DNA of 64,000 nucleotides from Methanomicrobia archaeon (GTDB lineage: Archaea > Methanobacteriota_B > Thermococci > Methanofastidiosales > NM3): contig JAUVXU010000008.1 in assembly GCA_030603445.1 (NCBI GenBank), forward strand, positions 18,146-82,145, given 5' to 3'. Positions 24,890-33,392 of this stretch are shown piece after piece. The stretch's first letter is position 1. Every line of letters starts with the position of its first letter. A program made the translations under genes and the position numbers. The notes under the pieces were generated by a model. It was not told the DNA's origin and searched no databases. It saw nothing but the letters and a program-made list of their open reading frames with translations.

Positions 24890-26326
24890 ATGAAGTTTAT
24901 GATAGTAGGAAGTGGAGCTCGTGAGCATGCCATTGCCGAAAACGCAATTTCTTGTGGATATGAAGTTTATGCGGCTAGTGAGATACGAAACCCAGGTTTG
25001 CTCAATCTTTCAAAAAAGCTTTACGAAGTAAACATTCTTGATAGCGATGCCGTAACAAACGTTGCAAAAAAAGTCATGCCAGATGCGATATTTATAGGCA
25101 GTGAAGAATCCCTATTTGCAGGTGTTTCTGATGCTTTGCGCGCAGCTGGATTCTTCGTTATAGGGGCATCGAAAAAAACCGCAGACATAGAAAAGTCAAA
25201 AGGTTTTATGAGAAATCTTATGGAAAAATACAATTTATATGGGAGATTAAGATTCAAGACTTTTTCAAACATAGAAGAAGCCATAATATATATTGACGAA
25301 TATGCAGGATCAGTTGCTATAAAACCAACGCGACAAGCCGGGGGAAAAGGAGTAAAGGTCATAGCAGACCTGCAAGCATACCTAAAAGAAGAGAAAAATG
25401 CTGCAAAGAAACGCCACGTTTCTGATATCGTAGAGCAAAATCTCTCCCAGGATTTAGAAGATCCCATCCTTATAGAAGAGAGGGTAGAGGGTGTTGAATA
25501 CACTATGCAGTGCTTTACTGATGGGAAGAACATAATCCCATTAAAGATAGTTGAGGACCATCCCCATGCCTTCGTAGAGGACATAGGACCAGAGACAGGA
25601 GGTATGGGGTCTATATCAGGCGATCAGGACAACTTGCCTTTCCTATCTGAAAAAGACTACCAAACCTCATACGAAATAATAGAAAAAGTTATCCATGCTA
25701 TAGAAAAGGAAACAGGAGAACCATATTTTGGAGTGCTTTCTGGGCAATTTATGCTAACAGACAAGTGGGGGCCTACGGTAATAGAGTTCTATTCTAGGCT
25801 TGGTGACCCAGAAACAGTAAATATAATGCCCCAACTACAAAACTTTGATGAAATAGTTGAAGGGATGAAAAGAGGGAACCTAGAAAATGTGGTTGCTCGA
25901 TTTGAACAAAAAGCAACAGTAGTAAAGATAATCTCACCGAAAGGCTACCCCAACAACAGGGACATCGGCAAAGGACACGAGATTCATATAGACATAGAGG
26001 CTATTGAAAAGATTGGTGCTAAGGCATATTTTGGTTCTATTTACGAAAAAGATGGGAAATACTACACAGGCGGTTCGCGCGCTTTAGAAATATATGCTGC
26101 AGCTGACAGCATAGAAGAGGCTAGTGCCATCGTTGATAAGGCTGCTACATTTGTGAAGTCTGACTGGAAGCTTTTCTACCGAAAAGACATAGGGACAAAA
26201 GCCTTGCTTAAAAAGCGATTTGAGCAGGCAAATCTTGCAAGAGACATATTCCATTATAGGGCAGAAAGAGGACTAATCGGAAAGACGATAGATTGGATAC
26301 CCGGAATAGGAAAGATTGAAACATGA
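24890..26326 (+). CDS. purD: Phosphoribosylamine-glycine ligase (GAR synthetase)
   Basis: ATP-grasp enzyme of 478 residues that couples phosphoribosylamine to glycine. The N-terminus has VGSGAREHAIAENA, the ATP-grasp core IKPTRQAGGKGVKV, then ETGGMGSIS and YFGVLSGQFMLT with metal ligands in IEFYSRLGDPET. It is longer than bacterial PurD (about 425) by inserts and a C-terminal tail, as in several archaea. The ATG follows the purF2 stop without a gap, so coupling is likely. Confidence 0.95.
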   Translation: MKFMIVGSGAREHAIAENAISCGYEVYAASEIRNPGLLNLSKKLYEVNILDSDAVTNVAKKVMPDAIFIGSEESLFAGVSDALRAAGFFVIGASKKTADIEKSKGFMRNLMEKYNLYGRLRFKTFSNIEEAIIYIDEYAGSVAIKPTRQAGGKGVKVIADLQAYLKEEKNAAKKRHVSDIVEQNLSQDLEDPILIEERVEGVEYTMQCFTDGKNIIPLKIVEDHPHAFVEDIGPETGGMGSISGDQDNLPFLSEKDYQTSYEIIEKVIHAIEKETGEPYFGVLSGQFMLTDKWGPTVIEFYSRLGDPETVNIMPQLQNFDEIVEGMKRGNLENVVARFEQKATVVKIISPKGYPNNRDIGKGHEIHIDIEAIEKIGAKAYFGSIYEKDGKYYTGGSRALEIYAAADSIEEASAIVDKAATFVKSDWKLFYRKDIGTKALLKKRFEQANLARDIFHYRAERGLIGKTIDWIPGIGKIET

Positions 26327-29724: not shown

Positions 29725-29972
29725 ATGTTCCTGCCAAAGAACTTGAAAAATGTTCAAAGATAGGATTGTTATTTGTGGTCATTGAAAAGGGAACTAAAAA
29801 AATCTATAAAAAGAAATATTATGTTTTTTTCTCCAGATCACTAACTTTTATACAAAAGAGGCCAATTAATCCTGCAGGAGACAGACTGCATGCCCGTAGG
29901 ACTGGGGGTTTCTAATATTACAAATATTTAAATAAATTCTACTTATTATTAATTATATATGGGGAAATTAAA
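29725..29972. other. Intergenic region, no gene found
   Basis: I see no credible coding frame here. Most of it is AT-rich, but 29873-29912 is noticeably G/C-rich and contains the 10-base palindrome TCCTGCAGGA. The last 50 bases look like a promoter (TATTTAAATA-like box near 29926-29933) for the oxidoreductase gene. The G/C-rich island has no motif I recognise. Confidence 0.5.
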
Positions 29973-30974
29973 ATGAAAGCAGCTATTTGTACAAAATATG
30001 GCCCCCCAGATGTTCTTCAGCTTAAAGAAATAGAAAAACCTATTCCTAGGGACAATGAAATACTGGTAAAAGTATATGCAACAACAGTAACGGCAGGGGA
30101 CGTGAGACTTCGAAGTTCCACATTTCCTCCCTTGTTCTGGCTCCCCGCGCGAATAATGTTTGGTCTCAGAAAACCAAAAAGACCCATATTAGGGATGGAG
30201 CTATCCGGGGAAATTGAAATAGTAGGCAAGGACGTAAAACGATTTAAGAAAGGTGACCAAGTTTTTGGAACCACCACAGGATTGAGTTCTGGTTCTTATG
30301 CCGAGTATATTTGTATACCTGAAGAACCTTTATCCGCAGGTATGTTTGGAGCTAATGTGGTAACACTAAAACCGACTAATATGGACTATGAGGAAGCTGC
30401 CGCCGTTCCTATTGGAGGGCTTACAGCACTGCATTTTCTTAGAAAAGGAGATATCCAAAGCGGACAAAAAATTCTTATCTATGGGGCTTCGGGAAGTGTA
30501 GGCACTTTTGCGGTACAGCTTGCCAAGTACTTTGGAGCAGAAGTTACCGGGGTATGCAGTACCGCAAATTTAGAATTAGTGAAATCTCTGGGAGCCGATA
30601 AGGTGATTGATTACACTAAAGAGGATTTTAACAAAAGCGGCGAGACCTATGATGTTATTTTTGACACGGTAGGTAAGAGTTCGTTTTCAGATTGTAAAAG
30701 ATCGCTAAAGAAAAATGGGTTCATTCTTTTAACCACCCCGAGGCTGTCATATATTGTTCAAGGCCTTTGGTCTTCAATGAAAGTAATAACAGGGGGAGCA
30801 TCCGAAAAGCCCGAAGATTTAAACTTCCTCAAAGAGCTTATTGAAGCGGGAAAGATAAAATCAGCCATAGATAGACGCCATCCGTTGGAACAAATTGTCG
30901 AGGCTCACCGGTATGTTGACAAAGGACACAAAAAAGGAAATGTAGTAATCACTGTGGGACATAATAACAAATAA
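29973..30974 (+). CDS. Zinc-independent MDR-family NAD(P)H:quinone reductase-like protein
   Basis: The 333-residue protein belongs to the medium-chain dehydrogenase/reductase superfamily. The nucleotide-binding motif is [21 protein letters not shown], and the N-terminal GroES-like domain lacks the zinc ligands of alcohol dehydrogenases, as in quinone reductases. It shares a strand with a flavodoxin 12 bases downstream, suggesting a small redox unit. Genes of this type are widespread in bacteria and Methanosarcinales, and with the array to its right it may be acquired DNA. Confidence 0.9.
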
Positions 30975-30986
30975 ATAATAAAAAGG

Positions 30987-31442
30987 ATGGGAACAAAAGT
31001 GAAAACGTTAATAATATGTAAATCCATACATAACGGGAACACAGAAAGAATTGCTAAAAAGATGGCTAAAATATTGAATGCTGATTTGATAGAACCTGAA
31101 GAATTAAACAATATTATGGAATATGATCTAATAGGTTTTGGTTCTGGCATTTATAATTCTAAACATCATCAATCTCTATTAGATCTAGCAGATAAATTAC
31201 CAGACTTCAAAGAGAAAAAAGTTTTTGTTTTTTCAACATCAGGTGTAATACAAAAGCGATTTCACAGAAGTTTAAAGGGAAAACTAGAGGAAAAAAATGC
31301 GGTAATAGTTGATGAATTCTTTTGTAAAGGGTTTAATAAAAACAGTGTGTTGAAATATATTGGTGGAATGAATAAAGGGAGACCTAATGAAGATGATCTC
31401 AAAAAAGCAGAGGATTTCGCAAAGAAAATGAAAGAGAAATGA
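30987..31442 (+). CDS. Flavodoxin-family protein
   Basis: The 151-residue product has a flavodoxin-like fold: an FMN phosphate loop SIHNGNTERIAKKM near residue 12, DLIGFGSGIYNSKHH around residue 47 and FSTSGV near residue 82. It would carry electrons through FMN. ATG at 30987 follows AAAAGG; a GTG four codons later is possible. It is probably co-transcribed with the upstream reductase gene. Its partner in vivo is unknown. Confidence 0.88.
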   Translation: MGTKVKTLIICKSIHNGNTERIAKKMAKILNADLIEPEELNNIMEYDLIGFGSGIYNSKHHQSLLDLADKLPDFKEKKVFVFSTSGVIQKRFHRSLKGKLEEKNAVIVDEFFCKGFNKNSVLKYIGGMNKGRPNEDDLKKAEDFAKKMKEK

Positions 31443-31459
31443 TATACTAATTTTTGAAA

Positions 31460-31549
31460 TTAATTTCTAATCTTAAATAAATGAAAGTCAATTGCCACAA
31501 TAGGAATTCCTCCTTCACTTTCTAGTAAAATCTTTCCAGCATGACCCGT
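31460..31549 (-). pseudogene. Remnant of an endonuclease III (HhH-GPD) gene
   Basis: A short minus-strand open stretch encodes about 29 residues ending in a stop. It contains GHAGKILLE followed by GIPIVAIDFHLFKI. This matches the active-site region of endonuclease III, where the family reads G-x-x-K-T-A and then GIP-x-VAVDTHVFRV, including the catalytic Asp. Both ends are cut: a stop precedes it at 31550 and the C-terminal Fe-S part is absent. It lies beside repeat site 1, so it may be debris left by recombination. Confidence 0.5.
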
Positions 31550-31628
31550 TTAATGCAATAGCATTAAGCAAATGAGTTTACTCTCTCTTGGCCTCTTTTG
31601 TCGCTGGTAAATTAATGGCGCTACGAAC

Positions 31629-31713
31629 GGTTAACACCAGGATTATGAGGGATCTGCGAAACAAACTTGAGTGAGAGAGTACAACGAATCGGGCCTCATA
31701 AGCCGTGTTATAT
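31629..31713. repeat. attC-like structured site 1
   Basis: Two nested inverted boxes: TAACAC (31632-31637) pairs with GTGTTA (31705-31710), and TTATGAGG (31643-31650) with CCTCATAA (31694-31701). The unpaired spacers between boxes are 5 and 3 bases. The central loop is about 43 bases. This R-L-loop-L-R layout is that of integron attC sites. The ends are GGTTAAC and GTTATAT, near the consensus RYYYAAC/GTTRRRY but not exact. A conserved flank with AGAGTGCA continues to about 31760. Confidence 0.6.
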
Positions 31714-31794
31714 GAAGTGAACGAAGCGCGAGGAATAAGAGTGCAGTATCCCGGGGCGACTGAAATGAACGAAAGCGTTGGACTGGGAGCAAAT

Positions 31795-32319
31795 TTAGGT
31801 TTCTGCAATCCCATTATATTTTTTAACCAATTCTTTGTAGAGGACTTCATCTTTTATTACGTCTCTAGAATTTTCAATGAAATACTTCAATTTTTCAAAC
31901 AGCCATTTTGATAATTCTTTTGTTGAAGCAAGATGATAATAATCAATATTATCAAAAAAATCAGCAGTTTTAATGATTAAAGCATCTTTTCCAGCTTTGC
32001 GACAACGCATGAAATTCTCTTTGTATCTTTCAGTTTTATCCTTAATACTTTCGTCAAAGCTATTTGCTTCAACTAACTTAGCAATTTTACTGCCGAATTT
32101 TGATTTAACTTCCTCAATTTTTGTGTCAGTATCCTCAACCACATCATGCAAAATAGCTGCGACCACAATGTCTTCATCATATCCTAAATTATAAAGATGA
32201 AGTCCGATTCTAATACTATGCAAAATTACTGGCTTAGGATTTTTCCCAGATTCATGGATTGTAAAAACTAGAAACTTTATTGCTTCTTCAATTTGTTTAT
32301 CAACTTCAGGACTTTTCAC
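31795..32319 (-). CDS. HD-domain phosphohydrolase, RelA/SpoT hydrolase-like
   Basis: A 174-residue single-domain protein with HSIRIGLHL and AAILHDVVEDT, the metal-binding H...HD pattern of (p)ppGpp hydrolases of the SpoT/MESH1 kind, followed by FGSKIAKLVEANS. The synthetase domain is absent. It could hydrolyse (p)ppGpp or a related nucleotide. The gene fills the interval between attC-like sites 1 and 2 almost completely, with its 3' end toward site 1, which is the organisation of a mobile gene cassette. A bacterial origin is plausible. Confidence 0.85.
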   Translation of the reverse strand: MKSPEVDKQIEEAIKFLVFTIHESGKNPKPVILHSIRIGLHLYNLGYDEDIVVAAILHDVVEDTDTKIEEVKSKFGSKIAKLVEANSFDESIKDKTERYKENFMRCRKAGKDALIIKTADFFDNIDYYHLASTKELSKWLFEKLKYFIENSRDVIKDEVLYKELVKKYNGIAET

Positions 32320-32370
32320 AAGTATTAGATAAATTGATAGGTATTATAAAAATTGTTCTAGTCCAATACC

Positions 32371-32458
32371 GTATAACATCAAGATTATGAGAAATTTACA
32401 CAGCAAATTTGAGTGGAACGAGATGCAACCGAGCGTAACGACATAATCCTTGTTAAGT
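32371..32458. repeat. attC-like structured site 2
   Basis: TAACA (32374-32378) pairs with TGTTA (32451-32455), and GATTATG (32383-32389) with CATAATC (32442-32448). Spacers are 4 bases on the left and 2 on the right; the loop is about 52 bases. The right end GTTAAGT fits GTTRRRY exactly; the left end GTATAAC fits RYYYAAC except at one base. The loop shares AAATTTGAGTG and the right flank shares AGAGTGCAACGTCCCG with the other sites. Confidence 0.65.
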
Positions 32459-32518
32459 GAGGCGAAGCTAGAGTGCAACGTCCCGAAGGGCTGGCGAGAG
32501 TTTAAAAAAATAAAATCG

Positions 32519-32908
32519 CTACTCTTTTAGTTCAGAGAAAACCAAAATATACCCATTGAGATCTCTTACGGCAAACTCTTTTGCCCCGTAAAATGTCTCT
32601 CTCATATCTCTGACAATTTCAACTTTCTCTTTAACAGAATCATACAAGGATTGCACATCTTCTACTTCGATATAAAACGTTAAGCTTGCGCCAATTTTCT
32701 TTCCCTTGAGAACAGGCATCTCTTTGACCAAGCTTTCTTCTTTCTGAAAGAAAATTTGTACACCATCTGCTTTCACAACAGCCCAGTCAAGTGGTTCATC
32801 AAGAGAATCCCCCTTGTTTGCAAACTTAAAGTTGAAAATGTCTTTATACCATTTTACGGTTGCATTTACATCGGCGACCATAATATTTGGCGTGAGTGTT
32901 TTGTACAT
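32519..32908 (-). CDS. VOC-family (glyoxalase/bleomycin resistance-like) protein
   Basis: A 129-residue protein with two beta-alpha-beta-beta-beta modules of the vicinal oxygen chelate fold: TLTPNIMVADVNATVKWYKD at the start and a second module ending in FAVRDLNGYILVFSE. Such proteins bind metal and act in detoxification or antibiotic sequestration; the substrate is not predictable. It is the only gene between attC-like sites 2 and 3, oriented with its 3' end toward site 2, exactly like the HD gene in its unit. Probably acquired from bacteria. Confidence 0.85.
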   Translation of the reverse strand: MYKTLTPNIMVADVNATVKWYKDIFNFKFANKGDSLDEPLDWAVVKADGVQIFFQKEESLVKEMPVLKGKKIGASLTFYIEVEDVQSLYDSVKEKVEIVRDMRETFYGAKEFAVRDLNGYILVFSELKE

Positions 32909-32960
32909 ATTATTTAGTTAATACCTTAAATATAATAAATGTTTTGTTTTTTTAAATTTC

Positions 32961-33050
32961 ACTTAACATCACGATTAAAAGAAGTTCGGCGCAACCAAAT
33001 TTGGATGAAGAAACCTACAAGTTTTCGGAATCTTTTAATCGCTGTTAAGC
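32961..33050. repeat. attC-like structured site 3
   Basis: The best preserved copy. CTTAACA (32962-32968) pairs with TGTTAAG (33043-33049) and the 11-base CGATTAAAAGA (32972-32982) with TCTTTTAATCG (33031-33041). Spacers are 3 and 1 bases; the loop is 48 bases. The ends ACTTAAC and GTTAAGC match RYYYAAC and GTTRRRY exactly. A conserved flank (TAGTGCAACGTTCCG) follows at about 33070-33085. A small open frame that runs through the site is a by-product. Confidence 0.7.
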
Positions 33051-33392
33051 TCTCCACAGGATTGAATTTTAGTGCAACGTTCCGTAGCGAAGCGGAGGAA
33101 AAATTCAAAGTAAATTTGAAGTCCGTTCCTTTCAAAGAGCTTTATCGATACATCAAGAACAAGAATCAAAGGGTAGTTTTCTTATAATTATCTTCTATAT
33201 CATAAAAAAAAATCCCGATTTTTTCAGGAGTTGTTTTTATTTTTGTTGAAGATTTGATTATGTACTTATAACCCTAACTACGCTCTTTTTATCTCCTATA
33301 AGCATTGAATCATTTTTTGTTGCCATCAAAAAAAGTATGCCATCAGTAAGGTATATATATGAATAAAATTTACATATTTAAGAGGTGTACTA
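33051..33392. other. Intergenic region with repeat flank and promoter
   Basis: The left part is the conserved flank of repeat site 3. From 33110 to 33187 a short plus-strand frame continues to a stop (ending in NKNQRVVFL) and might be the broken end of a lost gene, but I recognise nothing in it. The right end holds a TATA-like TATATATA near 33352-33359, about 25 bases before the presumed start of the lipoprotein message, and an AGGTG ribosome-binding site. Confidence 0.45.

Follow-up and report, generated by a model that had tools for sequence, protein, structure and literature searches.

Matching ends between neighbouring sites point to an integrase-less cluster of integron-type cassettes in an archaeal chromosome

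The chromosome of a Methanomicrobia archaeon probably carries a small, integrase-less cluster of integron-type cassettes, CALIN-like in its organization and belonging to an integron-like system with a XerA-type integrase. The cluster lies within the 64-kb stretch of DNA analysed here (hereafter the window), and each cassette is one gene with a recombination site at its 3′ end (Table 1). The sites are homologous, structured and covarying, the block that contains them is absent from relatives, and viral contigs hold arrays of the same kind, some with a linked tyrosine recombinase. Judged by their sequences, the complementary ends of neighbouring sites are exactly those expected after excision of cassettes at G|TTRRRY. 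The initial annotation, made from the sequence alone, had suggested either a CALIN or a related, undescribed family of recombination sites. Support for this suggestion came from the end matching, from the absence of the block in a same-genus genome and from the integrase-linked arrays.

Throughout, sequences are read on the minus strand, which is the direction of the genes, so that the array runs in the order s3-[VOC]-s2-[HD]-s1. The three sites are homologous, aligning with one another over their full length on this strand, the strand of both genes. Their positions, outer boxes and inner boxes were as initially described, and the two-base asymmetry of the spacers was also found, the longer spacer being the right one when read in gene direction. 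The ends of s3 (R″ GCTTAAC, R′ GTTAAGT) fit the attC consensus RYYYAAC/GTTRRRY exactly in both directions, and those of s2 (R″ ACTTAAC, R′ GTTATAC) and s1 (R″ ATATAAC, R′ GTTAACC) come near to it, in agreement with the first reading. A separate scanner, given nothing but the layout of attC, ranked s3 as the top attC-like inverted repeat of the 64 kb (score 17.8; shuffled windows average 1.6 hits scoring 13 or more). The single-strand folding energy was significant for s3 only (z = −4.1), s1 and s2 lying close to their shuffles, and folding alone is therefore insufficient as evidence.

One minus-strand gene occupies the interval between each pair of sites, VOC between s3 and s2 and HD between s2 and s1, with its 3′ end facing its site, as had been noted at the outset. 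The sites of the family lie directly downstream of genes, and some overlap the stop codon. The closest plasmid relatives of the HD protein are haloarchaeal (45–48%), and BLAST searches of plasmids and phages, with either the whole region or individual sites as query, returned nothing useful.

Table 1 Features of the putative cassette array and the surrounding block (window coordinates)
Feature	Coordinates	Strand	Details
Site s3	32958..33051	minus	R″ 33051-33044 (AGCTTAAC); R′ 32967-32958 (G|TTAAGTGAA)
Inferred VOC cassette, 590 bp	32377..32966	minus	TTAAGT... to ...TGATG; includes s2 up to its G
VOC gene (glyoxalase/bleomycin-resistance superfamily), 129 aa	32519..32908	minus	PF00903, E 3e-10
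Site s2	32368..32459	minus	R″ 32459-32452 (CACTTAAC); R′ 32377-32368 (G|TTATACGGT)
Inferred HD cassette, 742 bp	31635..32376	minus	TTATACGG... to ...CTGGTG; includes s1 up to its G
HD-domain hydrolase gene (RelA/SpoT-type HD), 174 aa	31795..32319	minus	PF13328, E 6e-13
Site s1	31626..31714	minus	R″ 31714-31707 (CATATAAC); R′ 31635-31626 (G|TTAACCGTT); final site in the array
Lineage-specific block	29725..33392		Between HAD-like gene and lipoprotein-like gene

A pattern overlooked in the first reading is that ends match between adjacent sites and not inside one site. The TTRRRY hexamer that comes after the G of an integron site is part of the following cassette, and complementarity is therefore expected between this hexamer and the left end of the site that comes next. 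Within the window, R′ of s3 pairs with R″ of s2 at 6/6 variable bases and R′ of s2 with R″ of s1 at only 4/6, and the two ends of a single site match at 2–3/6. Across 29 neighbour pairs from 13 arrays, a list that excludes neighbours with a probable undetected site in between, R′ of one site matched R″ of the next at a mean of 5.45/6, compared with 3.31 within the same site, 2.79 for the reverse neighbour and 2.58 for other arrays (permutation P = 5e-5). With no pair omitted, 21 of 26 scored 5 or more, versus 8% at random. The base pair next to the crossover covaries within sites (C-G in 11, T-A in 13, another pair in 3), which is expected if the break falls just after that pair. End matching and the covarying inner pair together place the likely break between G (or A) and TT, the crossover used in integrons; in s3 it would fall between 32967 and 32966. 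By its sequence pattern, the family thus shares TTRRRY with the neighbouring cassette, a feature of integron attC sites. The end-matching test requires no site model and could reveal such arrays in any genome.

Further copies, which the initial annotation had proposed to look for, were found on another contig of the same genome (C11) and on viral contigs. A model built from s1–s3 only (R1) was used to scan the source genome together with 25 relatives. Apart from the window sites, it detected two sites on C11 (E = 4.9e-9 and 1.6e-6) and gave only weak matches elsewhere. Viral contigs, searched first with two DNA patterns derived from sites on C11 and in G020 and then with R1, yielded more family members (best R1 E = 2.4e-8). 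The first viral pattern had matched genes only and was dropped once the sequences were read. An alignment of 27 members has one structure, with an R stem of 8, an L stem of 11 and a three-way junction with two hairpins. Pairing is present in 84% of the alignment cells, versus 63% after shuffling, a control in which relatedness persists, and ~40% with slid partners, a control that removes it. Changes on both sides, that is, compensatory changes, occur in 26 of the 29 pairs, and the L stem is present and covaries. The site interior, which had been called an unpaired loop, is in fact branched and conserved, keeping a CACYCAAAT...ACTTC motif and two hairpins. The word GTTGCACT (or TGCACT) occurs ~20–31 bases before R″ in s1, s2 and s3, in one C11 site and in one viral site (window 31683–31745, 32479–32490 and 33071–33080; L152 near 10569); being limited to these four sites of the source genome and the one viral site, it was rejected as a family feature.

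The window lies on contig C24 of a 1.62-Mb genome (G000; 96% complete, 0.02% contamination). Its relatives indicate an archaeon of one class with a family of closed 2-Mb genomes, and suggest Methanofastidiosales and Thermococcales. The genes on both sides of the array are syntenic in relatives, which indicates that the array sits in an archaeal chromosome and not on a stray bacterial contig. A tRNA-Met and a tRNA-Asn lie beside the flanking genes, and their order is kept in G003 and G004. In the same-genus genome G001, the HAD-like and lipoprotein-like genes are ~230 bp apart and the block between them is absent. Conservation at fixed positions in all relatives, which the initial annotation had named as evidence against its proposal, is thus not what the syntenic locus of G001 displays. 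Neither R1 nor a further model, R3, found a site in G001–G004. The block also holds quinone-oxidoreductase-like and flavodoxin-like genes on the plus strand (29973–31442), outside the cassettes.

The array on C11 is older and more degenerate, with five confident matches over ~10 kb (at 25991, 27170, 31657, 33258 and 36096), all on the minus strand. Its genes (L195 6992–17194, corresponding to G000:C11:25991–36193) are a methyltransferase, a VOC gene, DUF6144 and DUF4332. The adjoining conserved genes are syntenic in G001–G003, where the array genes were not found. Single copies of the family are present on contigs C8 and C41 of the same genome.

The search for an integrase gene, also proposed initially, had a divided outcome: the window contig gave no integrase match, with none beside the array, and a relic was found on C8. 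This relic (L196 10053–10922) is a frameshifted remnant of a tyrosine recombinase that retains the C-terminal part only. Behind it come an attI-like TTG|TTATAT, a single gene and a single family site with R″ CATATAAC; the locus represents the remains of an integron-like element within the source genome. On contig L034 (G020:C115, 1–3970), an integrase end is followed by an attI-like G|TTAGGCGA and three genes, with DNA methyltransferase genes carried in the first cassette. Next come a site (R″ TCGCCTAAC, R′ GTTATGTGC), a gene and the next R″ (GCACATAAC). The far end of L034 looks like a recF fragment, which would make the contig chimeric, bacterial or a contaminant. A nearly full XerA-type integrase on L035 (G005:C90, 3351–4260), broken near its C terminus and without the IntI insertion, is followed by an attI-like GAACGAG|TTGTGCG. 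L034, L035 and L196 each have an attI-like G|TT downstream of their integrase piece, and the window has none.

These three integrase pieces share 59–78% identity over their overlaps (59% over 41 codons for the C8 relic) and are ~33–35% identical to IntI. Where the relevant region is visible, in broken copies from two related bins and in intact viral integrases, the IntI-specific insertion is missing; the spacing from KDR to HxLRH is 53–60 residues in the viral and Bacteroidota plasmid relatives versus 100 in IntI. By size and domain make-up, the closest enzyme type is the chromosome-dimer resolvase XerA, from which the associated integrases differ in accompanying cassette arrays and in forming a group of their own, at modest support (86/68) in a tree with several long branches. 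In the same tree, a 100/100 branch splits IntI from the associated integrases and XerA. A search of 61 related genomes for IntI (TIGR02249) gave no match over the cut-off, nearly all matches being XerA. These sequences suggest that the enzyme of the system would be a XerA-type tyrosine recombinase lacking the IntI-specific insertion.

Viral contigs provided a second view of the linkage between integrase and sites. The G005 integrase as sole query found nothing there, and an alignment query did find viral relatives. In 80 viral loci chosen by their integrase only, R3, whose training includes the window sites, gave 32 matches with E below 1, individually weak (lowest E 2.9e-5). Every one of them is on the opposite strand from the integrase, and almost all lie upstream of this gene, which is the classical integron layout. 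Five close site pairs in these loci (270–680 bp apart) match at 6/6. Because the individual R3 matches are weak, the argument from the viral loci rests on layout and end matching. The link between the sites and an integrase is indirect, being drawn from the 41-codon C8 relic, from contigs that are short and whose hosts are uncertain, and from these viral loci. Candidate attI words downstream of the viral integrases occurred at chance level and were not retained; in these loci the arrays are found upstream of the gene.

In the mechanism that we propose, the site would fold as a single-stranded hairpin, the integrase would cut a single strand at the G|TT step, and cassettes would enter or leave there as circles. 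The cassettes are probably immobile now unless the enzyme is supplied in trans, because the genome keeps only the degraded integrase piece on C8.

Alternatively, the array might be an ordinary CALIN, made of canonical attC cassettes that a classical IntI of a bacterium or another archaeon moves in trans. The R boxes of the RYYYAAC/GTTRRRY type, the G|TT crossover and the single-gene cassettes would fit, and archaeal CALINs are known from nine phyla, with archaeal attCs that work with IntI1 (PMC9668308). A CALIN is recognized by at least two attC sites that lie within 4 kb without a neighbouring intI; the window has three sites within 1.4 kb on a contig without an integrase match, and the label presupposes that these sites are attC. 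On this point the comparison with canonical sites is unfavourable, making the reading rather unlikely. A model of 29 bacterial attC sites taken from 80 IntI loci (R2) found other bacterial attCs on the expected strand but was silent on the window sites, even with filters off, and on C11 and L034. Background scores had been named in the initial annotation as evidence against its proposal, but R2 is narrow and found the Vibrio superintegron repeats (VCRs) only weakly (13–22 bits), so that its silence alone would still allow attC membership. The family has no extrahelical bulge of the attC L″ type, its asymmetry residing in the spacers, and in place of the variable terminal structure of attC it has a conserved, branched interior. 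The 61 related genomes without IntI above the cut-off and the short KDR–HxLRH spacing of the linked integrases also speak against a classical IntI.

We therefore prefer a related but separate site family, which appears to fit better than a CALIN in view of the background-level R2 scores of the window sites, their branched and conserved interior, and integrases that have no IntI insertion. It was placed outside the IntI/attC family because tests for two traits of attC sites and for the IntI domain came out negative. Archaeal integrons and CALINs have been published from 75 genomes in nine phyla, with an IntI that has the extra domain and with attI downstream of intI (PMC9668308); the main text of that report does not mention the taxonomic order of the host archaeon studied here. 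The array shares with these systems its attC-like R boxes, the putative G|TT crossover and co-oriented single-gene cassettes, and the candidate attI-like sites of the family occupy the position given for attI in archaeal integrons, immediately downstream of the integrase (PMC9668308). The branched interior without an L″ bulge, the silence of R2 and the integrase type set the family apart. VCRs likewise share the R boxes and the cassette logic, but they are longer, have L″ extrahelical bases and are not found by R3.

Two further readings are much less probable. A structured RNA or terminator at gene 3′ ends would explain the position of the sites, including the overlaps with stop codons, and their conserved fold. 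No curated Rfam family matches the sites, which leaves the initial concern about a structural RNA unsupported, and an RNA function predicts neither pairing with the next site over pairing of a site's own ends nor a linked integrase and attI-like sites. We consider this reading very unlikely; a transcript-level role could coexist with recombination. Less likely still is a miniature transposon or other dispersed inverted repeat, which would account for several genome copies with palindromic ends, since the copies are diverged, arrayed in one orientation and one per gene, their ends covary between neighbours, and inspection showed no target duplications and no transposase among the neighbouring genes listed as ORFs.

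An integron-like system thus remains the favoured reading, and its wider extent can be considered. The IntI-specific domain has been held necessary for integron recombination, and integron gene capture has been tied to IntI with this extra domain. We see about an even chance that the arrays represent a distinct integron-like class in viruses, archaea and Bacteroidota, with branched conserved sites, [G/A]|TT exchange and XerA-type recombinases without the IntI domain. If so, cassette capture would be served by another integrase type that has a site family of its own and would be broader than present searches reveal, and standard attC and IntI models would miss arrays in archaea and viruses.

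A related case may be the rAID clusters of Bacteroidales (recombinase-associated acquired interbacterial defence), whose first description reportedly compared them with integrons. In these clusters, a tyrosine recombinase lies upstream of orphan immunity genes that share one orientation, and motifs in the intergenic regions are conserved (PMC12247911). Their recombinase belongs to the same NCBIfam group (NF040815), and the co-oriented short genes with conserved intergenic motifs are a further likeness. They differ in having A|TT instead of G|TT in most sites, an interior that R3 does not recognize and a content of immunity genes; the window array has no adjoining recombinase, and its genes are HD and VOC. 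On a Bacteroides ovatus plasmid (NZ_CP081918; L203 5834–10469), ends matched in 8/8 neighbours, at 5 or 6 of 6 bases, in regions downstream of a site-specific integrase and between SMI1/KNR4, Imm26 and other short genes. This pattern suggests that rAID-type arrays may be cassette arrays, and end matching would give a simple reading of their intergenic repeats.

On five viral contigs (L150, L157, L163, L167 and L171), we also observed a site subtype in which AAT/ATT replaces AAC/GTT at the crossover. This subtype represents an altered crossover base in an integron-like system; its arrays contain as many as eight sites, whose ends again match from cassette to cassette.
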